Source: Pacificibacter marinus (GTDB taxonomy: Bacteria; Pseudomonadota; Alphaproteobacteria; Rhodobacterales; Rhodobacteraceae). Taken from it: a DNA stretch of 64,000 bases. Shown here in pieces: positions 5,973-24,396 of the stretch. The DNA lies in the NCBI RefSeq assembly GCF_018860505.1, contig NZ_JAHKPU010000049.1, forward strand, positions 1 to 64,000. The letters are read 5' to 3'. A program made the position numbers and the translations under genes. The notes under the pieces were generated by a model that did not search any database, was not told the origin of the DNA, and saw only the letters and a program-made list of their open reading frames with translations. The first letter of the stretch is position 1, and every line of letters starts with the position of its first letter.

Positions 5973-6059
5973 ACTGACTCCTCCAATTCTTAATTCTTTG
6001 AAACATTTAGAGCTTTGCAGATCAATAATGCTATTCCGTGGGGTGATTGGATATTTCGA

Positions 6060-6947: not shown

Positions 6948-7007
6948 GATTGGGGTTTCCTATGGTTTTTTGAACCTTCAGACAGAGGCTCCGAATGAGA
7001 GATATAA

Positions 7008-7035
7008 AGCGGGGGCACAAAGCATCGCCCCCGCT
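7008..7035 (-). terminator. rho-independent terminator after the OFA transporter gene
   Basis: A perfect 9-bp stem (AGCGGGGGC paired with GCCCCCGCT) closes a 10-base loop. Read on the minus strand it follows the transporter stop codon at 7045 and is followed by TTTATAT, so it should end that transcript before the LysR gene. Confidence 0.75.
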
Positions 7036-7044
7036 TGGCGTTCT

Positions 7045-8766
7045 CTATTCCCCAGGGACGGCCTGCAATTCCGGCTCGTCATGATGGTGATGTTCTTTCA
7101 CCGGCCGCATCCACAGGTTTGCAAAGAATGCCACGACCAAAAGCGCCGCCATGCAGTACATAGTTGTATTGTATAGCGATGGCGTGGGGTCAATGGTACC
7201 GTTGGGTGCGATTTCCATCAATCTGGCAATCGTCACAGTTTTGGCTGCGACCAACTGATCAAGCTGCGTCAGTGGCGCACCAAATTTCTCGGCAAAGGCT
7301 GCCGGATCAACTTTGTCCGAAAGCTCTGTAATCGCGGCTGTCACTGACATCTGCCGCAGTGATGTGATCACCAATGGTCCCAACACACCCGCAAGCGACC
7401 ATGCCGTCAGCAAACGGCCATGAATGCCACCCACATGCATCGTGCCGAACATATCCGCGAGATAGGCTGGAATGGAGGCAAAGCCGCCGCCATACATCGA
7501 GAAAATGATCATCGTCGCCACGTAGAACCCAACCAGATAAATTACGGAAGGCGTGGTCGCGACAGCAGAGGCAAAGAAGGGGATCGATAGGTACAACAGC
7601 GTGCCCAGAACGAAGAAGCACATGTAGGTCGCTTTGCGTCCGATATAGTCCGAAGTCGAGGCCCAAAAGAAACGGCCAACCATGTTAAAGACCGAGATCA
7701 TCAAGACATAGGTGGATGCAAAGGCGGCAGTCGCGACGAGTGGCATGACCGAGCCAAAAATCTCAGACATCATGGTTTTGGCAACGCCGATAACACCGAT
7801 GCCAGCGGTCACATTCAGGCAAAGCATTAACCAAAGCTGCCAGAATTGCGGTGTCTTGAGGGCTTGATCAATATGCACGCTATTTTGCGAGACCATTTTA
7901 GAGGTCACGGTTTTGGGTTCCCATCCCTCAGGCTTCCAGTCTGGTGCGGGCACGCGATATTGGAAGGCCGCAAGAATCATCACGATGAAATAGACAATGC
8001 CGAGTGTCAGAAACGTTTGTGATGCGCCAGTCTCGCCTGTGCCGATAACGTAGATGCCAGCCTGTCCGCCAAAGTCTGCGGCCTGAGCTGCTGAAGCGAT
8101 CACAACTTCGACCTGACCCGCTGTTGTTTCGGCAAAAATCCGCCCCTTGTCGACGACGGTTGTCACTGCATCTTGCGCCCCGAGAAACTCAGGTGCCTTT
8201 GCATAGAGCCCAAGCAACCAGCCCTTGATCGGGGCTGCAATCATCGCGCCGCCGCCAAAGCCCATGATCGCCATGCCTGTCGCCATACCGCGTCGATCAG
8301 GGAACCAACGCAAAAGCGTGGATACAGGTGATACATATCCAAGGCCGAGACCGCAGCCGCCCAAGACGCCGTATCCCAGATAGACCAACCAAAGCTGATG
8401 GGTTGAGATTCCTACCGAGCCGAGGATAAAGCCGCCACCCCATAGGAATGCGGCGACGACACCAACCATACGGGGGCCGACCTCTTCGAGCCATTTACCA
8501 GCAAAGGCCGCTGAAAGGCCTAAAAATACGATGGCCACGGAAAAGATCCAGACGACCGAACTGAGGCTCCAATCATCTGCACCAGCCGAGACAACACCCA
8601 ATTCGCGTGTTAACGCCAGATTAAATACGGACCATGCATATACCGATCCGATACACAGATGGATGGCGATGGATGCTGGCGGGACACGCCAACGATTATA
8701 GCCGGGTTCGGCGACGATGTGACTTTTGTGCAAAAAAGCTAGCGGACCGCTTGCTGCATTTTTCAT
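7045..8766 (-). CDS. OFA-family major facilitator transporter (oxalate/formate type)
   Basis: A 573-residue multi-span membrane protein of the MFS oxalate/formate antiporter (OFA) family. The N-terminal part shows IAIHLCIGSVYAWSVFNLAL, typical of the first helix, and the loop WFPDRRGMATGMAIMGFGGG matches the family signature. An insert of about 60 residues near 190-250 separates the two six-helix halves. The start codon has a good GGGAGGG site. Placement between the fds genes and a two-component system suggests transport of formate or a related small carboxylate, but the substrate is inferred from family and context only. Confidence 0.88.
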   Translation of the reverse strand: MKNAASGPLAFLHKSHIVAEPGYNRWRVPPASIAIHLCIGSVYAWSVFNLALTRELGVVSAGADDWSLSSVVWIFSVAIVFLGLSAAFAGKWLEEVGPRMVGVVAAFLWGGGFILGSVGISTHQLWLVYLGYGVLGGCGLGLGYVSPVSTLLRWFPDRRGMATGMAIMGFGGGAMIAAPIKGWLLGLYAKAPEFLGAQDAVTTVVDKGRIFAETTAGQVEVVIASAAQAADFGGQAGIYVIGTGETGASQTFLTLGIVYFIVMILAAFQYRVPAPDWKPEGWEPKTVTSKMVSQNSVHIDQALKTPQFWQLWLMLCLNVTAGIGVIGVAKTMMSEIFGSVMPLVATAAFASTYVLMISVFNMVGRFFWASTSDYIGRKATYMCFFVLGTLLYLSIPFFASAVATTPSVIYLVGFYVATMIIFSMYGGGFASIPAYLADMFGTMHVGGIHGRLLTAWSLAGVLGPLVITSLRQMSVTAAITELSDKVDPAAFAEKFGAPLTQLDQLVAAKTVTIARLMEIAPNGTIDPTPSLYNTTMYCMAALLVVAFFANLWMRPVKEHHHHDEPELQAVPGE

Positions 8767-9021
8767 GGATTTCCCTCCCTAGATCGCACTGACAGCAAAC
8801 TCCTCCTAAGTTTACGCAGCGGCATACATTGGCATGCAGAGTAAAGAAAGACAGGTTGGGTGAAAGGCTGTCAACTTATTTGTAATATTTATCAATGACT
8901 TATGTGGATTTTATGTCTTTCTAAATGGGCTTGGTTGGGCCTTTGTGGGAGGTTCTGTCCTGTGCTTCGCCAGCGATGCGGTCCCTTTTGGGACATTTTG
9001 TCCAAATCGAGCGATTTGAAG
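8767..9021. other. intergenic region with stacked small hairpins
   Basis: The region between the kinase stop codon and the transporter start codon. At 8981-9003 the sequence GTCCC-TTTT-GGGAC-ATTTT-GTCC can fold in two mutually exclusive ways, which may weaken read-through from the kinase gene. The transporter promoter should lie in the AT-rich part. I looked for a sigma-54 type -24/-12 element facing the transporter and saw no convincing one. Confidence 0.35.
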
Positions 9022-10968
9022 TTATTTTTCAACGGGCAGGAAAACCTTGAAGGTGCTTCCTTTTCCGACAGTCGATTCGACGGCAATGTGCCCACCAACA
9101 CGACTCACGAGCCGCTGACTAATGGACAGGCCTAAGCCGGTGCCTTGTGCCTGCTTGGTGGTATAGAACGGATCAAAGATGCGCGGGCGTACGTCAGGTG
9201 AAATCCCAGTTCCGGTGTCTGTCACCGAAAACATAAAACCGCCTTCACAGTCACAGGTTGCTACGCTTAAAAGACCACCGCCAGACATAGCATGCACCGC
9301 ATTCAAAATCAGATTAACAACAACCTGCTGTAGCTCCGTGCGTGACATTCGCACCTTGGCGACGCTATCGGTCGACAAATTGCACGTTATCCCTGCGCTG
9401 GCGATTTGGTGCTGAGTCAGGACAATGCAATCCCGTACAACTTCGGAAGGCATAATCAGGTTTGCTGACCCCGAATATTCCTCTGGGCGAGCAAACTGCA
9501 GTAATTTGGAAACGATCACGCCGATGCGGTACACTTGATCGTCGATCAGGCGAAATTCCTCATCTACTTCATCCGCTTTGTCACCCAATGTGCTGCGTGC
9601 AAGGTCAAGGTTACCTTGAATAACAGCAACAGGGTTGTTGATTTCATGGGCAACAGAAGCCGTGATTTCGCCAACTGCGGCCAGTTTTTCCGACATAATC
9701 AGCCGCTCTGTGGTGCGTTCCAGCCGATGATTGGCTTTGCGCAGATCGCGGGTGCGGTCTTCGACCTTGGTCTCTAAGCTCTTAGCCCAGTCACGCAATT
9801 CGCGATCACGTTCTTGCAGTTGGTCCAAAAGGTCATCTAAATGGCCAGCGACTTGCGCGATTTCGCCGCCCTTATTTGGCGGATTGTTGCGCGCTGTCAT
9901 ATCCCCCGCTTCAACACGTGCGATGGTTTTGGTCATGCCCTCCAAAGGACGGAAAATATGAGAAGCCCATCGCAGGAAAAGCGGAACTGACAGAAAGGTG
10001 ATCAGGATAAAAGCACTTACAAGCGTTACAATAGAAGCCGTTTTGGCTTGGCGAAAAGGTGTTTCAAGAAACCCGACATAGAGCATACCAACACGGTTTC
10101 CAAAGCTATCAACAATCGGTTCGTATGCGGAAATGTACCAATCATCGACGACGAACGCGCGGTCCAGCCAAGTTTGGCCGTTGCTCAAGACAAGTGTGCG
10201 CACCTCTGCCGAAACCCTTGTGCCAAGGGCGCGCTGGTTTTCAAACAGACGTACATTGGTGGAAATACGCACATCATCAAGAAATAGAGTGGCGGTGCCT
10301 TGGCTGCCCTCTGGCAGGCTTTGTTCGCGGTACACAAGCGCGTTAATCGTGTCGATGAATTCAAGGTTGCGATTCAATAACACGCCGCCGACAAGTGCGG
10401 CCCGTGTTCCGTCCGGTCGTTCCAGTGGTGCCGCCGAATGAATGATCATGCCTCGGGTTTCTTTGGTCCGATCTGTCGGTGCGGCGGCGCGGGTTGGCAT
10501 CAGCGGTATTTCTGCCTGCGTGGCAAGTCCGGGTGACAGCGCATCCAGTGCGCTGCTTTCCAAAATATCAACCGCGCTATGCCAGTGCCCATCTAATGCG
10601 GCGGCGATCACGGGCTGGCGTCTTTCCGCAGGCGTATCCGGCGCGATGCGTAGAAAATCAAGGCCAAGCCGCAGCCGTTCCTGTTCTAAAAATGCGATTT
10701 GATTGTCTGAATTCAGGCTGTCATTTAGGTCGACCGACCGCGCGATGGCATCGATGCGCTCGCCCGACATTTCAAGCAGCCTTGCCAGATACTGATCCGC
10801 GATAATCAGATCACCGTTCACTTTGTTCACAAGCAGGTCGTCAACTTTGCCTTCCAATCGCCACAGCGTGCCGCCCAAAAGCAAAGGCAACAATACGAGC
10901 ATCGGCAAAAGCGCAATAACCAGCAGTCGCACGCGAACAGAACGCAAGAAATTAGAACCAGATGGCAT
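9022..10968 (-). CDS. membrane sensor histidine kinase with periplasmic Cache-type domain
   Basis: A 648-residue kinase. A first membrane helix (about 13-34) is followed by a large periplasmic sensor region (about 38-310) of the single-Cache type, a second helix (about 312-334), a HAMP domain, a short coiled coil (385-425), the HisKA domain with the phospho-acceptor His441 in VAHEINNPVAV, and an HATPase domain with the G boxes DTGTGISP and GTGLGLSIS. It is separated from the upstream response-regulator gene by only three bases, so the two form one unit. Cache domains usually bind small carboxylates or amino acids, which would fit the neighbouring transporter. Confidence 0.9.
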   Translation of the reverse strand: MPSGSNFLRSVRVRLLVIALLPMLVLLPLLLGGTLWRLEGKVDDLLVNKVNGDLIIADQYLARLLEMSGERIDAIARSVDLNDSLNSDNQIAFLEQERLRLGLDFLRIAPDTPAERRQPVIAAALDGHWHSAVDILESSALDALSPGLATQAEIPLMPTRAAAPTDRTKETRGMIIHSAAPLERPDGTRAALVGGVLLNRNLEFIDTINALVYREQSLPEGSQGTATLFLDDVRISTNVRLFENQRALGTRVSAEVRTLVLSNGQTWLDRAFVVDDWYISAYEPIVDSFGNRVGMLYVGFLETPFRQAKTASIVTLVSAFILITFLSVPLFLRWASHIFRPLEGMTKTIARVEAGDMTARNNPPNKGGEIAQVAGHLDDLLDQLQERDRELRDWAKSLETKVEDRTRDLRKANHRLERTTERLIMSEKLAAVGEITASVAHEINNPVAVIQGNLDLARSTLGDKADEVDEEFRLIDDQVYRIGVIVSKLLQFARPEEYSGSANLIMPSEVVRDCIVLTQHQIASAGITCNLSTDSVAKVRMSRTELQQVVVNLILNAVHAMSGGGLLSVATCDCEGGFMFSVTDTGTGISPDVRPRIFDPFYTTKQAQGTGLGLSISQRLVSRVGGHIAVESTVGKGSTFKVFLPVEK

Positions 10969-10971
10969 TGT

Positions 10972-12321
10972 TTACAGCCCCCAAGCCGTGCACTTGCGAT
11001 CAATGGTCTTGCGGGAAATGCCAAGCTGTCGCGCGGCCTCTGACCTGTTTCCATTCAGTGCATCAAGGGCACCTAAAATCGCGCGTCTTTCTGTCTCTTC
11101 CAGTGATGTGATCTTGCATTCTAGCGCGGTGGTTTCCAAGCTTTCTATGGGGTATCTCCCGAAAATCAATGCTCTTTCCACAAAGTTGTGCAACTCGCGG
11201 ATATTGCCAGGCCATTCGTAACGCAGCATGGCTGAACGGACGGTAGAGGACATTTCCAATTGCGGTAAATTCAGTGCTGCAGAGATTTCATTTTGAAACA
11301 GATCCGCCAAGTCCAATAGATCTGTACCGCGCTCTTTTAAGGGTGGCATCGGGATTTCGACAACATTCATGCGAAACAAAAGGTCCTCGCGAAACACTCC
11401 GTCCGCCACCGCTTGCGACAGCGGTTTGGTTGTGGAGATCACAAAGCGCAGGTTCAGCTGCACATCACGCGAGGTTCCGATTGGCCTAATGATTCCGTTC
11501 TCCAATACACGCAGCAGCGCGGTCTGGGCGTTTGCGCTCAGCTCGCTCACATCATCAAGGAAAACTGTCCCACCAGAGGCTGAGGCCAGCAGTCCCTCAC
11601 GCTCTGTTTGCGCTCCCGGAAAGGCCCCTGCTGCATGGCCAAACAGCTCATATTCGATCATATCAGACGGAATTGCGCCGCATTGAATCGACAAAAAAGG
11701 CGCATTGGTGCGGCCTGAATGATTGTGGATGTGGCGGGCGGCGACTTCTTTGCCTGAACCGCATGCGCCTGTAATCAGGATGGGTGTCGACAACGGTGCG
11801 ACACGTTCCAACGTTTTACGAACATCGGAAATAATCGCTGACTTCCCGATTAATTCTCTGCGGCGATTTCCAGCAGAAGCCGTTTCAAGTTCGCGTTTTA
11901 GTAGGAAGTTTTCGCGCTTAAGCTTGGCAAAATCCAGACTGCGACGCAGAGCATTCATGATTTGGTTCGATCGGAACGGCTTTACGAGAAAATCTGATAC
12001 ACCCGCTCTCATCGCATCAATTGCGGTCTGAAGATCGGCGTAGGCGGTGATCATGATGATATCAGTGATGCCACCTTTGTCTCGCTGGGTGTGTAGCCAC
12101 TCAAGCCCTTTTTGTCCCGGCATGATGTTATCGAGCACCATCACATCATATTGCTTTAGGGATAACAGTTTTTCCGCGGTTTGTGCGTCGGGTGCCTCAT
12201 CAACCTGTGCGCAAATGGGTCTAAGCGTTTTGACAAGAAAGTGCCGCATGCCCGGCTCGTCATCTACGATCAGAATGCGGGCGGACTTTAGTTGCTCATT
12301 ATCTTTAACCTCAATTTGCAT
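10972..12321 (-). CDS. NtrC-like response regulator with atypical AAA+ motifs
   Basis: A 449-residue protein with receiver (phospho-acceptor Asp64 in VMVLDNIMPG), AAA+ and Fis-type DNA-binding domains (C-terminal NGNRSEAARQLGISRKT). The Walker A is GACGSGKE (185-192). Two signature elements differ from the norm: the sigma-54 contact loop GAFTGA reads GAFPGA (232-237), and Walker B reads VFLDD (253-257) instead of a DE pair. The start has a GGGAGG site. It is paired with the kinase gene downstream. Whether it still works with sigma-54 is uncertain; it may act in another way. Confidence 0.9.
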   Translation of the reverse strand: MQIEVKDNEQLKSARILIVDDEPGMRHFLVKTLRPICAQVDEAPDAQTAEKLLSLKQYDVMVLDNIMPGQKGLEWLHTQRDKGGITDIIMITAYADLQTAIDAMRAGVSDFLVKPFRSNQIMNALRRSLDFAKLKRENFLLKRELETASAGNRRRELIGKSAIISDVRKTLERVAPLSTPILITGACGSGKEVAARHIHNHSGRTNAPFLSIQCGAIPSDMIEYELFGHAAGAFPGAQTEREGLLASASGGTVFLDDVSELSANAQTALLRVLENGIIRPIGTSRDVQLNLRFVISTTKPLSQAVADGVFREDLLFRMNVVEIPMPPLKERGTDLLDLADLFQNEISAALNLPQLEMSSTVRSAMLRYEWPGNIRELHNFVERALIFGRYPIESLETTALECKITSLEETERRAILGALDALNGNRSEAARQLGISRKTIDRKCTAWGL

Positions 12322-12856
12322 ATGGTGCCTCCCAACACTGTCATCGCTATTTACTATGTCTTAAATGTTGCCAGAAACAACTGCCTCTTTGTGCTGCCAT
12401 GGGGCGTAGTCCAATTGAAAAAAGCGGTCTCGTTGGTCAGCGTCTCATTTGCTGTCGTGCCCGCCTTTGAGAAATGACTGCCGTAAGAGGGAGGGGCGAT
12501 GCTATCTTGTGTCCGAAATTGCGCTTTCCACACCTTATTTTGCACCGAAAGTTCTTTTGTGCGCGCTAAAGCCGCGGTTATGTCTTGATGATGGTGTTGG
12601 GCATTTTTTTCGCCAATGGGTTACGTCTGACGGAGGACTTGCAGGCTATGCGTCGTAAAGTCCAGCCACCTGCGCCAGTGCCGCGATGTGACCTATGATA
12701 TCGCAATATTGGTCTAACCTTTGGTCGCGTATGTCTCTTATCGTTTAATCCTTACTTCGTTTACTCTTGTAAAATCGAGTTCTTGCAACCCTTGTGGTCG
12801 ACCCAAAATAGCAAGGCTCTTTATCTTAAATCGAGCAAGCGTATGTGTCTTGCGGG
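12322..12856. other. 535-base gap, no gene supported
   Basis: This gap separates two minus-strand units. The right part is the untranslated tail of the adenylation-carrier-thioesterase gene, and the left part must hold the promoter of the regulator-kinase pair. Short open frames here (for example 12449-12658 on the plus strand) have no recognisable protein character and no ribosome-binding site. I see no clear terminator with a U-tract. Confidence 0.5.
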
Positions 12857-15661
12857 TTAATTGGATTTTGTAAGTATGATTTTCCAAAATTGGTTTTGTG
12901 CGACTGGGGTGGAAGGCGCGATCCCATGACTGACCATTCTACCAACGCAGATAAACGGTAAAATTTTGTTGGGAAGCCGCAGCGTACCTTCAATAACACA
13001 GCTATCACCGGGAGCGACATCTACGTCAAGTTTGCTGAAGCCCGCGATGGCATCGCGAATGCATCCGTCCAAGTTGAAAAGTGCTATTTCGACGCACAGT
13101 CCGCTGAGGTCATAGCGATCCCATATTTTATCCGACGTGTTTTGCACGCGGACCTTGAAGGGAACGCGCGTGCCGGCAATGGGAAACCGAGGCAACTCTA
13201 CCGATTGAAACTTGGCTTTGACCCCTCGTGCCCTATCTTCAAACCCCCAAGTGCCCGATGATAAATCAGGGCGTGTAAGACAGGCCTCAGTACTATCCAA
13301 ATGTTGGCAAATGCGTTTGCTTTGAGCCCGAAACTTATCGATATCCCATGTGTGCGATGTTTCGATGTGATGAATTTCACACCCCATAGGATGCAAAGCA
13401 TTCCGAGGAGACTCAATATCGCGAAGTGTGGCTCTTGCAGAGTGACGTTGACTTTGGCTCATGCCGTGGACCACAGGAAAGCGCAGGGGTTCAGTCGGCC
13501 AAAAGTCTAAACTTATAAACAGTTTGATGTCACGTCCCGCGAGTTGTAGCGCCCGTGCGACGTGCTGCATGACCTGAGCTCCACCACAAAAGCCACCCAA
13601 AGCGATTGGACCTTGGGGTTGAATCAATTGGATTTCGTTAACCAATTGAGAGGCGAGTGCGTGAAAATCGTTTTCTGACCTTTTTTTGCGGGTGAAGCGT
13701 GATTTACCAGTCATGCGAAATAACGAGCGCACAACGTATAACGGCCGTTTGGCACCGAAAGACTCGCGCACGTGGTCGAGTTCATCGGAACTTTGGCAAC
13801 TCCAAAAGAGGTTTGTACCGTTCTGAACTGTTCCTATCCCTCGGAACAACCCATCCTTAAGCACGATTTGCCCTGGCCATCCTGACATCTGTTCTGCAAC
13901 GAACTTCACAGCACGTGGACGTGTGACGGCGGTTCCAGCATTGGGGTTAGAAACGGCCAGACACAAAGCACCAAAAGTTGGTGTCTCGAACAATTGGTTC
14001 GGCGTAATGTCGCGGCCCAAAATTTTGGATAGCTCAAGCAAAAAAGTAATCGCAGAAAGGCTGTCCCCGCCCATATTGAAAAAGTCATCCTCGGAATTGG
14101 GCATACGCGAATTTAGGTGCTGGGCCCAAAGAGCCGCAAGTTTACGGTCTTGAGGGGATTGGCTTTCTGACCCTTCATCCGTACGAACACTCTCGTTTTG
14201 AGCCTCGCGTGCGATCCTTAGGCGGTCAACTTTCGCATTTGGCAGTCGCGGCAGTTCTTTCACTTGCAGAATCTTGCGTGGCAGTTTGAAGTCTGCCAGC
14301 TCGGATGCGAGCAATGTTTGCAGATCTGAAAGCTCGATAGGGTGTCGGACGGCAACCGTTAAACCGCTGACCTCACCAAGTGAAGGGTGGGTAAGCGCGT
14401 AAGCTGCGGCTTCTGTGACATTTGGGTGAGTTAGGGCAGCAGTTTCGATTTCAAGCGGAGCGACCTTCTCGCCACCGATGTTGATCATTTCCTTCAGGCG
14501 GCCGTTGATGGATAGGAAGCCATCGTCATCAAAGACCCCCATGTCGCCAGTGCGAAACCAAGTGTCAAAAAACACTTCTGAACGGGGTACGCCTTCATAG
14601 CCCTCAAACACAGTCGGGCCCGAAATACAAATCTCTCCACTGCGCCCATAGGACACTTCACTGCCGGTGGCGTCTAGAAGCTTCACTGGCGTTGAAAACA
14701 GCCGTCCTACAGTGCCTTGGCGACGATCCTGTGCAGATCGACCGTTTGTCGCGATTTGGCCCGCAGCTTCTGTCATCCCATACATTTCGATGATTGGACA
14801 TCCAAGCAATTCTTCGGCCCGCGTTTTAAGGCTTGGAGGAACAGGGGCGGAAATGTTGCGCACAAAACGCAGCGATGTGCCGATATCGCGCAGCATGTCA
14901 GGCGGAAGTGTTTCTATCAGGTGCAACAAAATTGTTGGCACCAGTTGCACCCATGTCGGACGGATGTCGCAGATCGTTTTGTGAAGCCCTGCTGCGGTAC
15001 GATCGGTTGTTAGAAAGACCGATCCTTTCTTTTCAAAGGGCGCAAGCAAGACATCCACGACAGCGCCTATATGAAAAGTCGGCAGGGTATTCAGTGCAAT
15101 GTCATCAGCTTGTAATTCGTGAAATGTTGCGATCTGTTTGGCCGAGTGCATCATGGAAGACACGCGGATCGGCACGCGTTTTGGGGCGCCTGTCGTACCA
15201 GATGTATGCAGAATCAAGCGGCCCGGCGCATTCGGCTGAAGGATAGATCTAGGCTTTAACGTTTCAGCTTCAGCTGAGGTCAATGCCGCGTTGAAGCATG
15301 GTTCCCATCGAAGAACGTCAAGGCCGATGCGTTGCAATTGTGGTGCGAAATGATCAAACTTATCCGATGCCAAAATCACTGAATCTGCTTGACCGTTTTT
15401 GGCAAGATTCAGAATTTCATGATCCGTAAGTTTTGGATTAATGGGCATGTAATCACAGATTTCTGGACAGGCCAGCATTGCAATTATCGATCCAACGGAG
15501 TCCTCTAGACACCCAAGAATACGCTTAGGAGGCCTTGCGAACCGTTCCACCAAGTCTGACTGAACCTGAGCTTTGACACGTGACAGTGCGTCAAAGCTAA
15601 GTGAAGCATCGGGGCCGGAAAGCGCAGTCTTTGCGCCGACAGGTAAGTCAAACACGGTCAT
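12857..15661 (-). CDS. adenylation - carrier protein - thioesterase synthetase with C-terminal Ig-like domain
   Basis: A 934-residue single-module synthetase. Residues 1-485 form an ANL adenylation domain (TSGTTG at 153-158, EMYGMTEAAG near 292, TGDMG near 371, catalytic Lys477). The FHIG segment near 196 is of the acyl-CoA synthetase kind and lacks the Asp that holds an amino group in NRPS domains, so a plain carboxylic acid substrate is more likely than an amino acid. Residues 500-575 are a carrier domain with phosphopantetheine site Ser534 (MGGDSL). Residues 610-790 are an alpha/beta thioesterase whose nucleophile elbow reads GFCGG, so Cys692 replaces Ser; Asp719 and His770 are plausible partners. 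The last 120 residues look like a beta-sandwich. Its start overlaps the P450 stop codon by four bases. Confidence 0.85.
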   Translation of the reverse strand: MTVFDLPVGAKTALSGPDASLSFDALSRVKAQVQSDLVERFARPPKRILGCLEDSVGSIIAMLACPEICDYMPINPKLTDHEILNLAKNGQADSVILASDKFDHFAPQLQRIGLDVLRWEPCFNAALTSAEAETLKPRSILQPNAPGRLILHTSGTTGAPKRVPIRVSSMMHSAKQIATFHELQADDIALNTLPTFHIGAVVDVLLAPFEKKGSVFLTTDRTAAGLHKTICDIRPTWVQLVPTILLHLIETLPPDMLRDIGTSLRFVRNISAPVPPSLKTRAEELLGCPIIEMYGMTEAAGQIATNGRSAQDRRQGTVGRLFSTPVKLLDATGSEVSYGRSGEICISGPTVFEGYEGVPRSEVFFDTWFRTGDMGVFDDDGFLSINGRLKEMINIGGEKVAPLEIETAALTHPNVTEAAAYALTHPSLGEVSGLTVAVRHPIELSDLQTLLASELADFKLPRKILQVKELPRLPNAKVDRLRIAREAQNESVRTDEGSESQSPQDRKLAALWAQHLNSRMPNSEDDFFNMGGDSLSAITFLLELSKILGRDITPNQLFETPTFGALCLAVSNPNAGTAVTRPRAVKFVAEQMSGWPGQIVLKDGLFRGIGTVQNGTNLFWSCQSSDELDHVRESFGAKRPLYVVRSLFRMTGKSRFTRKKRSENDFHALASQLVNEIQLIQPQGPIALGGFCGGAQVMQHVARALQLAGRDIKLFISLDFWPTEPLRFPVVHGMSQSQRHSARATLRDIESPRNALHPMGCEIHHIETSHTWDIDKFRAQSKRICQHLDSTEACLTRPDLSSGTWGFEDRARGVKAKFQSVELPRFPIAGTRVPFKVRVQNTSDKIWDRYDLSGLCVEIALFNLDGCIRDAIAGFSKLDVDVAPGDSCVIEGTLRLPNKILPFICVGRMVSHGIAPSTPVAQNQFWKIILTKSN

Positions 15662-16881
15662 TGTTTTACGCTTTCTTTCGATCCTTGCGCATTGGCCAGT
15701 TCAATTGTGGTGTCGCGCATCCATCGGTGTCCAAAAACGGGCTCAAAACGCAGGTTGGATGTATCTATACGTTTTGTATGTTTGGCGATTTCTTGGCAGC
15801 ATGCGAGGATGACCGAGATGGCCAGCCCTTCACCAATGCATCGATGCCTGCCGAGGCCAAAGCTGAAATCTATCGCATCGGTACTGCGTGCATTCGCGCT
15901 GGCCAAAGATAAAAAGACAGGAGAACCCGCAGGGCATTTTACCCCTGCGAGATGCATGTCGTTCGTTGCAATGCGGGCAATTGTTTGGCCGGGTGTTGCG
16001 GAGTGGATGGCATCACGCACAAAGCTTTCGGTAATTTCTGTACGCTCATTTTCAGGGGCTTCAGCCCACTTCAAAAGAACCTCTCCAATCGCCGCTTCAA
16101 CGTTTTCGACTCCGTCCGCGAGAACCAAAAGCGCATTGTCGCAGAACATGAGCTGCTTTTCGTCCTCGGTCAGCGAAAGACCTTCTAACAAGTCAGCAAA
16201 CTGGTTCATCGTGGAAAACAAACTGGTTTTCTGATCTGATGCTTGAACAAGCTGAGCCCGCAAGGCTTCCCGCGAAGCAGCAAGGGCGTGATTGGTGCGC
16301 GCAAATTCTTCGGCATCATGGATCGGCGCGAAGAGCTTAAACATTGCTGCTGTGTAGCGCTTTAAATCGGCTTGTTCCAGTTCGACCCCAACAAAGTCAC
16401 AAATGGTCTGGATCGCAAACCCGCGTGCTACGGTCTCAACCAATAATAAAGGTTCATCTCTGGGCAGATCAGAAACATATAGCTGCGCTGCTTGGGGGAT
16501 CTTGGAACGAAAGTCTGTTAGATTAGCGAAAATCGCCTTGGAAAGCCATTTTCGCACGACTGTATGTCTTGGAGCATCCAAGAATGGCGGAATATTAGCC
16601 GCGACTTGAGCTGCCACATATTTAGAACTGTTATGTGGCGCCAGCGCAGAAAAGCGGGAGGGTTGGTTGGAATAGTTTTTTTGCGAAAATGCGGCCTTCA
16701 AATCCTGAGGATCTAACATCAACTGCCCACCATTTGTCAGCGGGCAAACGGACATCTGTGCCAGTTCAGTCGTCGCCAAACTTGCGAAATCTTCAATCAT
16801 TTCTGGAGCAGTGAGATCTAGCGGTAAAATTGAGTTCTCAGCGTTTTTTCCTAATTTCCGGCGGACCCACTGTCCAAACAT
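15658..16881 (-). CDS. atypical cytochrome P450 lacking the ExxR motif
   Basis: A 407-residue P450-fold protein. The haem-binding loop FGLGRHRCIG (341-350, thiolate Cys348) and the C-helix HTVVR (106-110) are intact. By position the K-helix ExxR motif reads DAIH (290-293), the I-helix oxygen-activation Thr is replaced (GVEN, 257-260), and the meander segment between the SAN at 328-330 and the haem loop is about a dozen residues shorter than usual. It lies between an amidohydrolase and a carrier-protein synthetase, so a carrier-bound acyl group is the likely substrate if it is catalytic. It could instead be a structural or non-monooxygenase member of the family. Confidence 0.85.
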   Translation of the reverse strand: MFGQWVRRKLGKNAENSILPLDLTAPEMIEDFASLATTELAQMSVCPLTNGGQLMLDPQDLKAAFSQKNYSNQPSRFSALAPHNSSKYVAAQVAANIPPFLDAPRHTVVRKWLSKAIFANLTDFRSKIPQAAQLYVSDLPRDEPLLLVETVARGFAIQTICDFVGVELEQADLKRYTAAMFKLFAPIHDAEEFARTNHALAASREALRAQLVQASDQKTSLFSTMNQFADLLEGLSLTEDEKQLMFCDNALLVLADGVENVEAAIGEVLLKWAEAPENERTEITESFVRDAIHSATPGQTIARIATNDMHLAGVKCPAGSPVFLSLASANARSTDAIDFSFGLGRHRCIGEGLAISVILACCQEIAKHTKRIDTSNLRFEPVFGHRWMRDTTIELANAQGSKESVKQ

Positions 16882-17946
16882 TTAGGCCTCCAAGTGATTT
16901 TTAATACGCTGGCGCTGCTCTTTGGTGAGCGCAACCCCACAGGCCAAGCTGGCCAGAATGTCGACGTCATAAAACCGTACCGCTGCTGACAAGACAAACA
17001 CTTCATCCGTAAGATCTGTCGTGGTGGATGGCGACAACATGTCGGCGCAATTGTCACTGCCCAATCGAACATGAACCCCTGCTGCGCAAAGTTCGAGCAC
17101 CCGTGCGATAGAATTGTGTGTAGGCGCATATACGCTGCGAATTTGTCGCATGCCAATAGCTGCGGACGGACAGCATATCACCCCAACATGTGCGGTTTTT
17201 AATCGTTCAACCAAACTTTCCCAGCGAGGTTCGTCATAGGCAGAAGGTGAGATCATATGAACAGCCCAAACGCGTGGTTCGCCCGAAGTTTTAGTAAGCG
17301 GATTATGCTGTTCCAAAACGTCCAGCAGCCTTTCGGTGGCATTTTCCAGCGCCAGATTTTTTTGATCGGTATGAACGTGTAAAAATGTGTCGTGGCGCGC
17401 GGCCAGATCGATCATACGCCTGCAATTTTCTTCATAACCAATATGGTTCGGATAGTCTGCTGTGTCATCGCGTTCGGGTAGGCAACCAATAAAATCAGCA
17501 ATTTCAGCGGCCTGCTCCATTAATCTGAACGCTGACATTTTATCGCTTTCAAAACCCAATGGAGAATAAGCTCCGATCCGAAAATCTATTTGTCCTTTAA
17601 AAGACTGCGCGACCTTACGCGCAGTCTTGATGCCGCGCAGTCCAAGGCCATCATCACTGACGTCAATAACGCTGTCGGCGCGTTGTGTTTGACAACGGAT
17701 CATCGATTTCATGGAATGTTGCAGCCGGCTTTTAAGGCCGTCTTCGGTGTAAAATTCGCTGTTATGGATCTCAGAAATTAGGCCATGTTTTTCAGGTAAA
17801 GTCAGATGCGCTTTGTTGGCCGCTTGATGCGTTTCTGGATTGAAATCATCAGTAAAAGCGCGATCTAAATGCAAATGCGCATTGTGATAGCCGCCTAATG
17901 CATCAACGCGTGCCGCAAGATCTTTATAAAATCGAGTGTCTCTCAT
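16882..17946 (-). CDS. amidohydrolase, cytosine-deaminase-like
   Basis: A 354-residue metal-dependent hydrolase of the amidohydrolase superfamily. The N-terminal HNAHLHLD supplies the paired His ligands (His24, His26), followed by FLHVHTDQ, a VHM strand end and the metal-ligand Asp in LGSDNCADML. This arrangement is that of cytosine deaminase and related N-heterocycle deaminases. The frame is open to 18042, but the ATG at 17946 is preferred because the protein then begins at the family's normal distance from the first metal motif. It is the first gene of the cluster; the P450 start codon follows its stop codon directly. The substrate is unknown. Confidence 0.8.
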   Translation of the reverse strand: MRDTRFYKDLAARVDALGGYHNAHLHLDRAFTDDFNPETHQAANKAHLTLPEKHGLISEIHNSEFYTEDGLKSRLQHSMKSMIRCQTQRADSVIDVSDDGLGLRGIKTARKVAQSFKGQIDFRIGAYSPLGFESDKMSAFRLMEQAAEIADFIGCLPERDDTADYPNHIGYEENCRRMIDLAARHDTFLHVHTDQKNLALENATERLLDVLEQHNPLTKTSGEPRVWAVHMISPSAYDEPRWESLVERLKTAHVGVICCPSAAIGMRQIRSVYAPTHNSIARVLELCAAGVHVRLGSDNCADMLSPSTTTDLTDEVFVLSAAVRFYDVDILASLACGVALTKEQRQRIKNHLEA

Positions 17947-19269: not shown

Positions 19270-21279
19270 ATGAGAACTCAAACAAGCTTGCGTGCGCTTA
19301 TGACAGCCGTCGCTGTTGCGCCGGCATTGGCGGGGGCAACTTTCGCCCAAGACATCGATACCACAGATTTTGGCGACTACATCGGCGCAGTGACATTGGG
19401 GGAAAGCCGCAGGGGCATTCAGACCGAAACGGCAACATCCGAAACCGTTATTTCACAAGAAGAACTCGATGCGCGTCAGGCCTCGACCTTAGCTGAACTG
19501 CTCGGCACAATTCCGGGGGTGACGCTTTCAAACTCTGCTACGCCTCAGGGGTCATCTATCAACATTCGCGGCCTTGGCGCGGACGCAGGCACATACGGAT
19601 CGAACACCAAAGTGGCTGTTGTGATCGATGGTGTCGCAAAAGGCCAAGAAGAGATCTATCGCCAAGGCAGTATTTTGACGATGGAGCCAGAGTTGTTCAA
19701 AACAGTCAAAGTGATACGTGGGCCTGGCGAAAGCTTCCGTTTCTCGGGAGGGGCGATTGGCGGTACTGTCGAAGCTGTCACCAAAGATGCGTCTGACTTT
19801 TTAGAAGATGACGACACATTTTCAGTCCGCCAAAAACTGGCTTATGAAAGCAATGGCGATGGATTTCTGACCAGCTCAATCGTGGCTTGGGCCCCAGATG
19901 ACAAATTCGAAGTGCTTGGATTCTACGGGTACCGGTCCAATGACGATTACACTGACGGGGCGGGCACGACACAAGTTGATACGGCTTATGAAATGCCGTC
20001 AGCGATGCTCAAGCTCAAATACAGCGCCTCCGAGGCATTAAGCTTTACTGCATCCGTGTCGAAAACCAACAATCGTTTAGAAGATGTGAGCTATGATTAT
20101 ATTGGCTCCTTGTTTGACGCGCGTGTGGATGCGGATATTGAAGACACCACAGCCTATGCGCAGGTGCAATATAATCCGCTCGACAATGATCTTGTGAACT
20201 TGACCGCTAAACTCACATATTCTGACGAATTGATTTCGAATATTTCAGATACGACATCTTCGACAATCTACAATGCAGACAACAGAACCGAACGATTGTC
20301 TTTAAGTTTTGAAAACGAAGCAATTTTCGCGACAGGAAGCGCGGATCATACCGTACTAGTCGGTGCCGAAGTAGGTAAGCGTACGCGTTCTTCCATCAGT
20401 CACACCGGTTCCAATGCGGGTTCGTCACCGGGTGGAACAGATGAATTTATTGCAGTCTACGCGTCAGATGAAATCGTTATGGGCAACCTCACGCTGACGC
20501 CTCAATTGCGCTTTGAGAAACAGAAAATCACTTCTGAAGGCAATGACACAATCGCCGATGGCACGTCATATGAAAAAGACTTGACCGTAGGTGCTTTGTC
20601 TTCGCGTTACAGGCTTGGTGAAAACTTCGCCGTGTTTGGTACGCTTGCGTATAACGAAAACATGCCGATTATTGATGACCTGTCCAACGCCTTTATCGAG
20701 ACGTCTGAAAAAGCGACAACGGTTGAATTTGGTGTCTCTTATGATGCTGTCGATGTGTTCAAATCTGGTGACAGTGTGAAAGCCAAATTGACGGGCTTCA
20801 AAACACAAATTTGGGACAACACGACCTATTCTGATTCAACAGGTTCATACGAAGATATCGAGTTGCAGGGTGTCGAATTTGAAGCCTCATACGCCACTGC
20901 GGCGTTCTATATGGATTTCAATGCTTCTCGTATTCGCGGCGAATGGGTCACGGGAGAGTATTTCAACAATACGCCAAGTGACACAGCGCAGCTCACGCTT
21001 GGCAAACATTTCCTGAATGACCAGTTGGATTTGGCTGTTGAAGTGTTGCACGGGTGGTCGAATGATCGCACGACCAGCACCTCAGGGGCCACTGCTGCCA
21101 GTGACAGTTACACAGTTGCAGGTCTGACGGCGGCCTATATTCCAGACAGCGGTTTGACGCAGGGTGTGGAGTTCCGCGCATCGCTCGATAACGTCTTCGA
21201 CCTTGATTACCAACCCTATCTCAGCAGTCGATCTGCGCCTGGCCGCAATCTGACGCTTTCGATCACCAAGACATTCTAA
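19270..21279 (+). CDS. hmuR: TonB-dependent outer-membrane haem receptor
   Basis: A 669-residue receptor. A signal peptide (about 1-26, ending GATFAQ) is followed by a plug domain (about 60-180) with STLAELLGTIPGVTLSNS, INIRGLGADAG and VIRGPGESFRFSGGAIGGTV, and a 22-strand barrel that ends in the outer-membrane signature LTLSITKTF with terminal Phe. I could not pick out the FRAP/NPNL pair seen in many haem receptors, so the ligand is inferred from hemP and hmuSTUV on either side. Energy would come from the ExbB-ExbD-TonB genes at the end of the same locus. Confidence 0.88.
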   Translation: MRTQTSLRALMTAVAVAPALAGATFAQDIDTTDFGDYIGAVTLGESRRGIQTETATSETVISQEELDARQASTLAELLGTIPGVTLSNSATPQGSSINIRGLGADAGTYGSNTKVAVVIDGVAKGQEEIYRQGSILTMEPELFKTVKVIRGPGESFRFSGGAIGGTVEAVTKDASDFLEDDDTFSVRQKLAYESNGDGFLTSSIVAWAPDDKFEVLGFYGYRSNDDYTDGAGTTQVDTAYEMPSAMLKLKYSASEALSFTASVSKTNNRLEDVSYDYIGSLFDARVDADIEDTTAYAQVQYNPLDNDLVNLTAKLTYSDELISNISDTTSSTIYNADNRTERLSLSFENEAIFATGSADHTVLVGAEVGKRTRSSISHTGSNAGSSPGGTDEFIAVYASDEIVMGNLTLTPQLRFEKQKITSEGNDTIADGTSYEKDLTVGALSSRYRLGENFAVFGTLAYNENMPIIDDLSNAFIETSEKATTVEFGVSYDAVDVFKSGDSVKAKLTGFKTQIWDNTTYSDSTGSYEDIELQGVEFEASYATAAFYMDFNASRIRGEWVTGEYFNNTPSDTAQLTLGKHFLNDQLDLAVEVLHGWSNDRTTSTSGATAASDSYTVAGLTAAYIPDSGLTQGVEFRASLDNVFDLDYQPYLSSRSAPGRNLTLSITKTF

Positions 21280-21323
21280 TCTTGGTGCTGGCGATGCGGC
21301 GTACCCTCGTGCGCAGCATCGCC
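21264..21323 (+). other. two hairpins at the end of the receptor gene
   Basis: CACCAAG (21264-21270) pairs with CTTGGTG (21281-21287) across the stop codon. A second 8-bp helix, GGCGATGC (21290-21297) with GCATCGCC (21316-21323), is followed by a pyrimidine-rich CTTTCCCCCCTTTT run. Together they may act as a partial terminator or an mRNA-stabilising element between receptor and transporter genes. Confidence 0.45.
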
Positions 21324-21373
21324 CTTTCCCCCCTTTTGTGTTTCCACGCAATTCAAGCCAACAGGACATTGCT

Positions 21374-22429
21374 ATGACAACGCCTCTTTCCGCCATTGAT
21401 ATTCGCCAAGCCAAATCCGATGCCACGATGCGAGATCGTGATCTCGCGCAAAGCTTGGGTATTTCCGAAGCCCAATTGGTTGCTGCTTTTGTTGGTCAGC
21501 ATGACGGTCAAAGTGTGACCCGTATCGCTCATCTCCCCGATGAGGTGATGCCAATGATCACATCTTTGGGCGAAGTCATGGCGCTCACGCGCAACGAGTC
21601 TTGCGTGCATGAACGGGTTGGTACATTTGAGAAATACTCCTCTGGTCAACACGCCTCTATGGTGCTGGGCTCCGATATCGACACTCGTATTTTCCCCAAA
21701 CACTGGAGTTTTGGTTTCGCTGTTGAGACACAAACCGAAAAAGGCCTGCGCAAATCTTTGCAGTTCTTTGATGCCTCAGGTGATGCGCTGCAAAAAATTT
21801 ACATGCGTGAGACGTCAAACCACGACGCCTGGGCACCGCTTGTTGCAGCTCTGAAACTCGATGACACCAGCGACAGCTTAGAGGTTGCGCCGCGCAAGCC
21901 CGTTGAAGGCGCGCAAGGCAGTGCGGATAAACGCGATGCCTTGCTTGAAGCATGGGCGACGATGACCGACACGCATCAATTTAATCGCATCACACGCAAT
22001 CTTGGCATGAACCGCCTTGGGGCATACCGCCTTGTGTCAGGTGAAAAATGGGTACGCCCAGTGGCCAAGGACAGCTCTGCTGCCTTTTTGAATGCTGTCT
22101 CTGAGGCGCGTCAAAAGGTGATCTTGTTTGTTGGCAATCTCGGTAATATTCAAATCCATTGGGGCACGCTTGATACCATCAAGCCAATGGGGCCGTGGCT
22201 TAATGTGCTTGATCCGAAATTCAATCTGCACCTGCGCGATGATCATGTCGCCGAGGCTTATGTCGTTGAAAAACCGACCAAACGTGGCCCTGCGTTGTCA
22301 TTCGAGGCCTTCGATGCTGCTGGAAACCTGATTTTTCAATGCTTTGGTCAAAAGACCGAAGAGGGGGATGCAGCGCGTTGGGCTAATATTTTGGCCTCAT
22401 TGAACACAGAAGAAGAGGCCTTGGCATGA
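21374..22429 (+). CDS. hmuS: haem-degrading/haem-carrier factor HmuS
   Basis: A 351-residue protein of the HemS/HmuS/ChuX family, made of two similar halves. The first half includes LAQSLGISEAQLVAAFVG and the second repeats the fold, with KPTKRGPALSFEAFDAAGN near its end. Members bind haem in the cytoplasm after import and either pass it on or help break it down. The ATG at 21374 has an AGGA site; a longer frame from a GTG at 21338 is less likely. Its stop codon overlaps the hmuT start codon by four bases. Confidence 0.92.
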   Translation: MTTPLSAIDIRQAKSDATMRDRDLAQSLGISEAQLVAAFVGQHDGQSVTRIAHLPDEVMPMITSLGEVMALTRNESCVHERVGTFEKYSSGQHASMVLGSDIDTRIFPKHWSFGFAVETQTEKGLRKSLQFFDASGDALQKIYMRETSNHDAWAPLVAALKLDDTSDSLEVAPRKPVEGAQGSADKRDALLEAWATMTDTHQFNRITRNLGMNRLGAYRLVSGEKWVRPVAKDSSAAFLNAVSEARQKVILFVGNLGNIQIHWGTLDTIKPMGPWLNVLDPKFNLHLRDDHVAEAYVVEKPTKRGPALSFEAFDAAGNLIFQCFGQKTEEGDAARWANILASLNTEEEALA

Positions 22430-23286
22430 AGTATTTCCTTGCAGCGATGGTTGTCGCCTTTCCAATAATGGCACTGGCCGAAAGTTATCCTGATGCCAGA
22501 TCTATCGTTTCCATCGGCGGCCCCGTTACTGAAGTGATTTACGCCCTTGGGGCAGGGGGCCGCATCGTGGCTCGCGATACCACATCGCATTTCCCAAGCG
22601 CGGTAGAATCCCTGCCTGACGTTGGATATATGCGCCAATTGTCAGCAGAAGGCGTGCTGTCGGTCAGCCCTGATCTTATTGTCACACGGGACACAGCAGG
22701 TCCGCCTGAGACTTTAGATCAATTGCGCGCCGCCAACGTGCCGCTGGTCGAGGTTCACGATGCTTTCACAAAAGAAAGCGTTTTGACTTCGGTCGAAATT
22801 ATCGGCGAAGCCCTTGGCAAGCAAGATTCTGCGGCACAGTTATACAAACAGATCGAAGGGGCATTCATCGCGCTTGAAGCAGAGGTCGCGCAACAAGAAA
22901 CAGCCCCGCGTGTATTGTTTATTCTATCCAATCAAGGTGGACGGTTGAATGTTGCTGGGCGCGGCACGGGCGCGCATGGCATGATCACGCTTGCGGGCGG
23001 TGAGAACGTCATGGGCGAGGCGTTTGAAGGTTACAAAATCATGAGCGATGAAGCCTTGATCGAGGCCGCACCAGATGTCGTTTTGATGATGACAGGACGC
23101 GAAGATCATGCAGGCCGTAAAGAGGACATCTTTGCACTCCCGTCCTTGGCGCATAGTCCTGCTGCGTTGAATGATGCTTTCATCACCATCGACCCAGCGG
23201 CTCTTGGTTTTGGCCCTCGCACCGCTCAATTCGCAAGAACGCTCAATGCGGATCTTGCGGTTGTGACGACAGCAAAGGCGCAGTAA
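22426..23286 (+). CDS. hmuT: haem ABC transporter, periplasmic binding protein
   Basis: A 286-residue class III (helical-backbone) binding protein with a signal peptide ending near residue 18 (MALAES). The family strand RSIVSIGGPVTEVIYALGAG and the GYMRQLSAEGVLSVSPDLIV segment match HmuT. It receives haem from the outer-membrane receptor and delivers it to HmuU. It overlaps hmuS by four bases and is five bases from hmuU. Confidence 0.94.
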   Translation: MKYFLAAMVVAFPIMALAESYPDARSIVSIGGPVTEVIYALGAGGRIVARDTTSHFPSAVESLPDVGYMRQLSAEGVLSVSPDLIVTRDTAGPPETLDQLRAANVPLVEVHDAFTKESVLTSVEIIGEALGKQDSAAQLYKQIEGAFIALEAEVAQQETAPRVLFILSNQGGRLNVAGRGTGAHGMITLAGGENVMGEAFEGYKIMSDEALIEAAPDVVLMMTGREDHAGRKEDIFALPSLAHSPAALNDAFITIDPAALGFGPRTAQFARTLNADLAVVTTAKAQ

Positions 23287-23290
23287 TCCG

Positions 23291-24394
23291 ATGGCATTCG
23301 TATCTCTTCCCGCGGTTAAACGCACCTTGATCACTCTGCGCGCGCCCGCACAGCAGGGGGATCGCACGGCAAAATCATTTGCCCTACAGGCTGGCTTATC
23401 GGTCCTTTTGCTGTTGATGATGCTGCTCAGTTTGGGCTGGGGTGCTGCGTCTGATACGGATGTCTTAGGCGCAATTGGCGCGAAATTTGGGGTTGGTTCC
23501 GCAAGCGCGCGCGACATGTCTATCGTTTGGGATATCCGCATGCCCAGAATGCTGACCGCCACTGTGGTCGGTGCCGCACTGGCTGTGTCTGGTGCCGTGA
23601 TGCAAGGTCTATTTCGCAATCCACTGGCTGATCCCGGCTTGGTCGGCATCAGCGCTGGCGCGGGATTCGGCGCAGTTGTCGCCATCGTTTTGGGTGGATT
23701 TTTGCCTGTGGCATTGCTCGGTCTTGTTGGGCCTTACCTCATCCCCTTGGCGGCATTCTTTGGTGGTTGGGCGTCTACATTAATTCTGTATCGCATTGCG
23801 ACCCGTGGCGGGCGGACATCCGTGATTACGATGTTGCTTGCAGGCATCGCGCTTGGCGCGCTTACGGGCGCGGCCACTGGTTTTTTGGTCTACCGCGCCG
23901 ACGATGATCAACTGCGTGATCTGACCTTTTGGGGCATGGGATCGGTTGCTGGTGCGTCTTGGTTTAAATTCATGACAGCAGGCCCGATTATCATTTTGGC
24001 GCTGGTGGCAACGCCGTTTTTAGCCCGCGCCCTTGATGCCTTGGCGCTGGGCGAACCGGTTGCGGAACATATGGGCATTGATGTTCAGCGGATGAAACGC
24101 ATCTCCATCTTAAGTGTGGCAGCTTCGGTTGGTGCATCGGTCGCCATCACGGGGGGCATAGGGTTTGTGGGCATTGTTGTGCCGCATCTTTTGCGTCTCT
24201 TTCAAGGGCCTGTGCACCGTTTGCTTTTGCCAAACGCGGCGCTCTTGGGGGCTGTGTTTCTTTTGATTGCGGACATGCTGAGCCGTGTTGTTGTCGCGCC
24301 CGCAGAACTGCCTGTTGGTATCGTGACGGCCACAGTTGGCGGGCCTTTCTTTTTGTGGATCTTGCTGAAAAACCGCGCAATGTTGGACGTTTAA
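23291..24394 (+). CDS. hmuU: haem ABC transporter, permease
   Basis: A 367-residue permease of the FecCD/BtuC family with about ten membrane helices. Clear family segments are RMPRMLTATVVGAALAVSGA, RNPLADPGLVGISAGAGFGA and GFVGIVVPHLLRLFQGP. The N-terminal 35 residues are basic and soluble. It forms the membrane channel of the HmuTUV importer; hmuV starts two bases after its stop codon. Confidence 0.95.
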   Translation: MAFVSLPAVKRTLITLRAPAQQGDRTAKSFALQAGLSVLLLLMMLLSLGWGAASDTDVLGAIGAKFGVGSASARDMSIVWDIRMPRMLTATVVGAALAVSGAVMQGLFRNPLADPGLVGISAGAGFGAVVAIVLGGFLPVALLGLVGPYLIPLAAFFGGWASTLILYRIATRGGRTSVITMLLAGIALGALTGAATGFLVYRADDDQLRDLTFWGMGSVAGASWFKFMTAGPIIILALVATPFLARALDALALGEPVAEHMGIDVQRMKRISILSVAASVGASVAITGGIGFVGIVVPHLLRLFQGPVHRLLLPNAALLGAVFLLIADMLSRVVVAPAELPVGIVTATVGGPFFLWILLKNRAMLDV

Positions 24395-24396
24395 CA

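Follow-up and report, generated by a model that had tools for sequence, protein, structure and literature searches.

A stretch of 64,000 nucleotides from Pacificibacter marinus (contig NZ_JAHKPU010000049.1, positions 1 to 64,000; hereafter the window) carries three neighbouring genes on the minus strand, which encode an amidohydrolase (AH), a cytochrome P450 and a synthetase with adenylation (A), carrier (T) and thioesterase (TE) domains. The trio may constitute a self-contained carrier-protein oxidation cassette, a reading to which we give a probability of about one half. In its comparison with described systems the trio is a variant of the known carrier-bound oxidation cassettes. What is new here, as judged from the alignments, is the linked loss of the Arg of the ExxR motif and of the meander in the P450, on top of a family-wide Asn in the I helix.

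Gene layout and domain content

The AH gene (16882..17946, minus strand) is read from an ATG at 17946; an alternative GTG at 18042 would lengthen the protein. Its stop codon TAA (16882-16884) stands immediately before the ATG of the P450 gene (16879-16881) with zero gap, the junction being ...GCCTAAATG.... The P450 gene (15658..16881, minus strand, 407 aa) belongs to a divergent family whose profile is closest to P450BioI, and its stop shares the bases ATGA with the start of the synthetase gene (12857..15661, minus strand, 934 aa). The three genes are probably made together, as the original prediction had proposed from their abutment and overlap. The fusion of adenylation, carrier and thioesterase functions in one protein, also proposed there, is borne out by Pfam, in which AMP-binding (174 bits), AMP-binding_C (36), PP-binding (43) and Thioesterase (40) all exceed their cut-offs. 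Features beyond that prediction are the cysteine nucleophile of the thioesterase, an immunoglobulin (Ig)-like tail and, in the P450, the I-helix Asn and the absence of ExxR and of the meander. Promoter and terminator scans stayed at the level of shuffled sequence (8 found against 7.1 expected, and 12 found against 9.3 expected) and were not used.

Occurrence of the trio

An AH alignment scan with two peptide patterns over the genomes of 84,980 species gave at least 29 loci, one of which (L045) is a fragment. With one more from a plasmid search, 30 public loci were available, and their genes were assigned with our own profiles. L040 and L041 are almost identical, L014 shares its genome with L027 and L015 with L022, and L023, L028, L037 and L039 end at contig ends. 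An A-T-family protein is encoded in the same locus as the AH in 27 of the 30; it is mostly adjacent to the AH, lies about 4 kb away in L032, and is cut by the contig end in L028, L037 and L039. The three loci without it are L022, L023 (a 6-kb contig) and L045. In Maritimibacter HTCC2654 (L022) the synthetase is retained at an unlinked position (906 bits, model positions 13-940 of 945), and the best synthetase match in the L023 genome (261 bits) is comparable to ordinary acyl-CoA (coenzyme A) ligases.

The P450 is present in 16 of the 30 public loci. Conservation of the trio in other genomes, on which the original prediction had been made to depend beforehand, was found, all three genes occurring together in 15 of the 30. 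Three gene orders were seen among these 15: AH-P450 with a convergent synthetase (10 loci), synthetase-AH-P450 (3) and P450-synthetase-AH (2); the window has a fourth, AH-P450-synthetase. The varying order therefore points to an association that is more than the inheritance of one operon. According to the tree tool, the loci fall in Pseudomonadota, Nitrospinota, Planctomycetota, Verrucomicrobiota and Myxococcota, and a Pontiellaceae bin among them would presumably add a further phylum.

On the other hand, general conservation within Rhodobacteraceae, where a search for the trio had been suggested, was not observed. The P450 query gave five matches at 1e-10 in 248 genomes of the family, its own genome included, and three of these (the window, Mesobacterium and Maritimibacter) are members of the P450 family described here. 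The remaining two (54 and 46 bits) are other P450s with AMP ligases of ordinary length nearby, and no AH or carrier-thioesterase matches were found around them. At 1e-40 the AH was found in its own genome only, both among 20 genomes of the genus and among 398 of the phylum sample; the class sample (385 genomes) gave one additional match, a protein of another kind (PRK06886, see below).

Residue counts given below come from alignments covering part of the loci: A2 (synthetases, 16 rows), A3 (P450s, 14 rows), A4 (AHs, 25 rows) and A5 (13 rows). Split genes were excluded from A2 and A3, and A5 includes parts of L028 and L038 taken from within single open reading frames (ORFs).

The P450 and its altered motifs

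The window P450 scores 16.7 bits in Pfam, under the cut-off of 22.8, and is not listed by the family search of its own genome. Its predicted model (mean predicted local distance difference test score, pLDDT, 87.5) has the P450 fold. At E<=0.001 it matches 1637 PDB chains, and all 50 of those listed are P450s. By family profile and predicted fold the protein is plainly a P450. Searched against solved structures, the family profile places P450BioI (CYP107H1) first with 242.9 bits, the next match having 216.6. P450BioI also tops the Foldseek list of the model, narrowly (3.0e-15, the best match outside its own P450 family having 7.3e-15), and CalO2 is present in both lists. P450BioI has been solved with an acyl carrier protein and, from the PDB titles, acts on long fatty acyl groups bound to this carrier. 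It differs from the window protein in having GHETT, ExxR and a full meander, where the latter has GVENV, DAIH and a 13-residue deletion.

Motifs were counted in the 14 rows of A3 and in three split genes (L028, L030 and L038) read from the second ORF. In two Devosia species the split gene consists of two overlapping ORFs (D. rhodophyticola, L030 11043-12346; D. algicola, L038 11037-12351) with the split at about the same site; L028, a Hyphomicrobiales bin, has it elsewhere. Such splits may reflect gene decay, an error or frameshifting. The I helix of the window P450 (16087..16146, minus strand) contains DGVEN, with Asn260 in place of the oxygen-activating Thr. Asn occupies this position in all 17 P450s of the family, and its acidic neighbour is retained in 12 of the 14 aligned rows. 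In the K helix (15994..16026, minus strand), residues 290-293 are DAIH instead of ExxR. Of the 17 P450s, 13 have ExxR and four have lost it, namely those of the window (DAIH), L018 (TAIT), L019 (ETVF) and L020 (KSIK); the Arg is gone in all four, and the Glu remains in L019 only. In the same four, and in no others, a stretch of about 13 residues that precedes the haem loop and contains the meander Arg is missing (15859..15894 in the window, minus strand). The remaining 10 aligned rows have this Arg, and so, on visual inspection, do the three split P450s.

The haem-thiolate loop FSFGLGRHRCIGEG (15826..15867, minus strand) follows the pattern FGxGxHxCxG and retains Cys348. D102, R110, H346 and C348 are invariant in the 14 rows, and H106 and R303 occur in 13 each, the deviating rows being outside the group without ExxR; we take these six to be haem-site residues. 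The four members without ExxR form one clade, both in a P450 tree from which the motif columns were excluded (support 100/99) and in a separate AH tree (100/100). The joint loss of the ExxR Arg and the meander is coherent, because ExxR is described as stabilizing the meander loop (PMC3990721, excerpt). Literature searches, which were not aimed at joint loss alone, yielded no report of it.

These losses raise the possibility, rather doubtful in our view, that the P450 of the window clade is a pseudo-enzyme that no longer oxidizes and serves the synthetase as scaffold or activator, much as P450-derived activators serve glycosyltransferases. Such activators are without the haem-ligating Cys, whereas Cys348 is kept here, and the window P450 scores 25 bits against TIGR04515, whose cut-off is 343. 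The loss of the ExxR Arg and the meander Arg in each of the four clade members and the family-wide replacement of the I-helix Thr by Asn would fit a pseudo-enzyme, as would the statement that most P450s yield inactive, misfolded forms when the invariant Cys, Glu or Arg is mutated (PMC3990721, excerpt). However, all four retain the Cys ligand together with the other five of these haem-site residues. CYP157 proteins, too, are without the ExxR Arg and are nevertheless counted as P450s (PMC3599690, excerpt), so that ExxR is not a strict requirement of the superfamily; their motifs there keep the Glu (EVLW, EQSLW), whereas the motif of the window clade is varied and its meander deleted, the comparison with CYP157 being confined to the ExxR motif. 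In CYP176A1 an Asn at the Thr position goes with efficient catalysis, although it is described as no functional substitute for the Thr (PMC8398027, excerpt).

The synthetase

The A domain (14192..15661, minus strand) has the oxalate-CoA ligases AAE3 and Pcs60 as its best solved matches (190-200 bits). It contains the segment FHIGAVVD, of which FHIG forms residues 196-199. In A domains that take alpha-amino acids, the Asp of FDxS contacts the alpha-amine; here His197 stands at this position in 16 of 16 rows. The catalytic A10 Lys of the A domain and the Ser of the T domain are likewise found in every row. Two His residues of three solved oxalate-CoA ligases (in FHVH and MTEA[ST]H) correspond to G199 and G301 of the window protein; the former is Gly in 16 of 16 rows, and the latter position is Gly in 10, Pro in five and Thr in one. 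Conversely, D203 is invariant (16/16) where the three ligases have Ala, Ala and Gly. From these residues we infer that the substrate is a small acid bound without alpha-amine recognition, perhaps one with a distal cationic group. The view that the A domain is not of the alpha-amino-acid type, proposed earlier from FHIG, is thus upheld by the invariant His197 and the kinship with oxalate-CoA ligases. Oxalate itself had been suggested by the best matches and by a nearby gene of the major facilitator superfamily (MFS), which resembles oxalate/formate antiporters by sequence and matches MFS_1 only in Pfam. This candidate was rejected: the two His of the oxalate ligases, whose oxalate-binding role is itself inferred, are Gly here.

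The T domain (13952..14149, minus strand) has the motif GGDSL with Ser534. CoA is unlikely as the acceptor, because the carrier domain is fused and its Ser is invariant; in this respect, too, the protein differs from AAE3 and Pcs60.

The original prediction drew on the NovH/NovI and NikP1/NikQ systems, in which an acid is loaded, oxidized on the carrier by a P450 and released. The comparison holds for this logic and fails for the substrate class, because the A domains of NovH and NikP1 take alpha-amino acids. The window differs from both systems in His197 at the position of the amine-binding Asp, in the added AH and in the fused thioesterase with its Cys.

The TE domain (13322..13912, minus strand) has the triad Cys692-Asp719-His770, assigned from Pfam, the alignment and the model. 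Thirteen of the 16 synthetase rows have the Cys nucleophile; the C-terminal part is of a different kind in L032, L036 and L040. Asp719 lies 27 residues past Cys692, directly after the next strand of the model, which is the usual place of this residue; it is Asp in 10 and Glu in three of the 13 thioesterase rows. The T-TE part has AB3403 (4zxh) as its best profile match and EntF as its best fold match. Both of these are longer modules with a condensation domain; the window protein is without one and has an extra tail. AB3403 is uncharacterized and has a Cys nucleophile and an Asp at position I (PMC11298585, excerpt).

The tail (12860..13294, minus strand, about 145 residues) is predicted by the model to be an Ig-like beta-sandwich and matched no Pfam family. 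It is aligned in all 13 synthetases of A5, is missing from two synthetases of L033 that have a TE domain, and the synthetase of L049 is similarly short.

The tail bears on another explanation, in which the trio decorates surface glycans: guided by the tail, the thioesterase would move the T-bound acid to a sugar of a surface polysaccharide, and the P450 and the AH would prepare the acyl group. Glycosyltransferase genes exceed Pfam cut-offs in the AH/synthetase loci L032, L033 and L044, L032 also has a sulfotransferase gene, and L040 has a glycosyltransferase-like gene below the cut-off (22.4 vs 24.3) and, by eye, a sulfotransferase-like gene. The presence of the tail throughout A5 would agree with this. 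However, glycan genes were not recognized in the stretches seen of the window, L018 and L020 (that of L019 is too short to tell), and a glycosyltransferase-like ORF in L039 matched no Pfam family. The tail is missing from the three thioesterase-bearing synthetases of L033 and L049, and its kinship to Wzt-type glycan-binding domains is an impression, with no Pfam family to back it. As an account of the trio, surface decoration appears unlikely. The glycan loci of some relatives nevertheless fit it at least as well as they fit a signal molecule, one of the products envisaged earlier. Nothing found points to such a signal (a search for receptors was not made), and the two-component pair adjoining the trio also occurs in the trio-less congeners examined.

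The nature of the thioesterase also allows an improbable scheme in which the P450 beta-hydroxylates the substrate and the thioesterase closes a strained ring, giving a small beta-lactone or beta-lactam as in obafluorin and sulfazecin. The Cys nucleophile, the places of SulM (rank 6) and ObiF (rank 12) among the Foldseek hits, and the A-T-sulfotransferase proteins of some relatives are in line with it. However, SulM and ObiF, the two characterized ring-closing enzymes, have their triad Asp at position II (by their numbering, 108 residues past the Cys), and for SulM a Gln-Cys-Asn motif is described (PMC11298585, PMC6668435, excerpts). The window thioesterase has Phe-Cys-Gly, and this scheme is set aside because its triad Asp is at position I and Gln-Cys-Asn is not present. 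A further candidate, and a highly improbable one, is a synthetase of furanones or quinones from pairs of aromatic alpha-keto acids, a non-reducing type like nonribosomal peptide synthetases (NRPS-like): the A-T-TE order is identical when architecture alone is compared (PMC9047271, excerpt), but the nearest solved A domains are oxalate-CoA ligases, the tail is extra, the nucleophile is Cys, and such chemistry offers no obvious role for the conserved AH and P450.

The amidohydrolase and its other contexts

The AH scores 24.7 bits in Pfam, just below the cut-off of 25, and its nearest solved structures are cytosine deaminases. The metal ligands and barrel residues H24, H26, H192, H230 and D298 are invariant in 25 of 25 rows, so that the HxH, His and Asp ligands of cytosine deaminases are all found. 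The Glu after the third His (HCDE), which is catalytic in cytosine deaminases, is not: three residues past the third His ligand, Gln195 takes its place in all 25 rows. Mean column identity is 63% for the AH (A4), 40% for the P450 (A3) and 33% for the synthetase (A2), the row sets being different; by this measure the AH is the most conserved part of the unit.

PRK06886 of NCBIfam resembles the AH in the same way, through the metal ligands and barrel residues, and differs likewise in the Glu. It was rejected as a name for the AH, which scores 173 bits against a cut-off of 340. The sole PRK06886 member over the cut-off in the 385 class genomes has an unrelated neighbourhood with no synthetase context; the start of an ORF at its site (L071 9091-10521) resembles, by impression, a methylglyoxal-synthase domain.

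Several AH loci without a P450 (L035, L039, L042, L043 and L044) encode, by similarity, A-T-sulfotransferase proteins; in L042 and L044 Pfam recognizes both these proteins and their TubC-C-T-TE partners. L035, L042 and L043 also have a gene for a 2-oxoglutarate (2OG) oxygenase, assigned by Pfam in L042 and by similarity in the others. In two Maritimibacter genomes a carbamoylase-type gene (allantoate/N-carbamoyl-amino-acid amidohydrolase) lies directly upstream of the synthetase (L068 172-4263; L021 12245-16714, where the gene is in two ORFs); no further case was seen in the window and the 30 loci. These neighbours hint at ureido or amino acids as substrates. Distant AH relatives with 28-34% identity were also observed in viral contigs of IMG/VR (L084-L093), two of which exceed 300 kb; the synthetase and the P450 were not seen in the stretches covered of these contigs.

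Horizontal spread

The trio has probably spread horizontally, because its scatter is patchy, collinearity with a congener breaks at the trio, its G+C content is lower and insertion-sequence-like genes occur in two relatives. In the congener whose flanking regulator gene is the most similar (91%), collinearity with the window covers 4475-12391 at 84% DNA identity and stops just before the trio, so that 12392..12856 (no strand assigned) is the edge of a probably acquired stretch. The right flank is a haem-uptake locus by Pfam, which is not at that place in the collinear congener; a search of that genome at 1e-60 gave no match to the TonB receptor of the locus. The G+C content is 50.1% in the trio vs 52.7% in the whole window, and at third positions 45-49% vs 52-60% in four flanking genes. 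The insertion-sequence-like genes were seen by eye near the trio in L018 and L019. Repeats of at least 18 bases around the trio are weak, occur in two copies and were taken for chance.

Carriage by a phage or plasmid was considered and rejected: there was no phage match, the P450 had no plasmid match, and the window contains no tRNA. A single plasmid record with an AH was found, from Gemmobacter aquarius (L049). Close to its AH-synthetase pair, at 2262-7067, are a P450 with a good Pfam score and a sulfotransferase, and the same block has two alpha/beta hydrolases and an outer-membrane protein.

At 7045-12321 the window has genes for an MFS transporter, a sensor kinase and a sigma-54 response regulator, which are conserved in the three congeners examined. 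The haem-uptake locus (19270-25206) comprises a TonB receptor, HemS, a binding protein, an FecCD permease and an ATPase. Its position beside a haem-dependent trio is probably due to chance.

Neither the trio nor its parts were found described in the literature, as far as search listings go. One possible lead is CYP2334A1, reported from an 'NRPS-like' cluster of Sulfitobacter sp. AM1-D1 (PMC8197338, excerpt).

Assessment and proposed mechanism

Several observations weigh against a carrier-protein oxidation cassette. The window P450 alone ranks P450BioI 28th (34.8 bits), its best match being 6j82 (43.1 bits), and the kinship with P450BioI therefore rests on the family profile. The earlier proposal that the P450 works on a carrier-bound acyl group may hold in that P450BioI is nearest by profile and fold; this ranking speaks against it. 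Of the 16 public loci with a P450, three (L028, L030 and L038) have the gene in two ORFs, and the loss of ExxR in the window clade could mean a loss of P450 activity. No redox-partner gene was seen among the neighbours, a search of the genome for one not having been made. Furthermore, the P450 is missing from 14 of the 30 public loci in the stretch covered, several of which are short contigs, and three of these have the 2OG-oxygenase gene in its place; to judge from gene content, the P450 is dispensable in the wider family. Finally, a PF01648 search of the own genome gave one match, of AcpS size, and no Sfp-type transferase; one match only was also found in six of 13 relatives, including the clade mates L018 and L019, so that loading of the T domain there would rest on AcpS. 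In favour of the cassette stand the association of the genes in varying order, the unlinked but retained synthetase of Maritimibacter HTCC2654, the recurrence of one clade in the AH and P450 trees, the profile and fold kinship with P450BioI, the invariant Ser and A10 Lys, the altered A-domain pocket, the retained haem-site residues, the carbamoylase-type gene of two Maritimibacter genomes and a gene for an Sfp-type phosphopantetheinyl transferase near the AH in L039.

If the trio is a carrier-protein oxidation cassette, the following scheme may be proposed. The A domain would adenylate a small carboxylic acid without an alpha-amino group, probably with a distal nitrogen, and load it on its own T domain; the domains are evident from the sequence, and the substrate is deduced from the residues discussed above. 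Like P450BioI with its carrier, the P450 would dock on the T domain once this is loaded and, if the kinship is a guide, oxidize the acyl chain. The cysteine thioesterase may then take over the acyl group and give the free acid, or pass it to an acceptor near the Ig-like tail. The AH, as a putative metal-dependent enzyme of the cytosine-deaminase branch, would either open or deaminate a nitrogen compound to supply the acid or trim the product. In the window clade the P450 would work without the E-R-R triad and the meander, presumably binding haem through the retained Cys. The scatter of the loci suggests that the cassette moves horizontally.

A wider interpretation takes the trio as the smallest form of a hitherto undescribed, cross-phylum biosynthetic family built around the conserved AH. 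A nitrogen-bearing non-alpha acid would be loaded on a carrier and oxidized there, either by a P450 or by a 2OG oxygenase; a cysteine thioesterase or sulfotransferase module would then transfer it to a surface acceptor. The P450 of the window clade would be active although it has shed the E-R-R triad and the meander. Taken with all its parts, this interpretation is speculative and decidedly unlikely to hold.

Implications

The trio marks a patchily spread pathway of marine and other bacteria with a tightly conserved hydrolase. Four genomes have lost the ExxR Arg as well as the meander, and relatives with the same neighbouring genes have both, which offers a direct paired comparison. If the P450 of the window clade is active, it would be a natural test of the requirements of the P450 fold.

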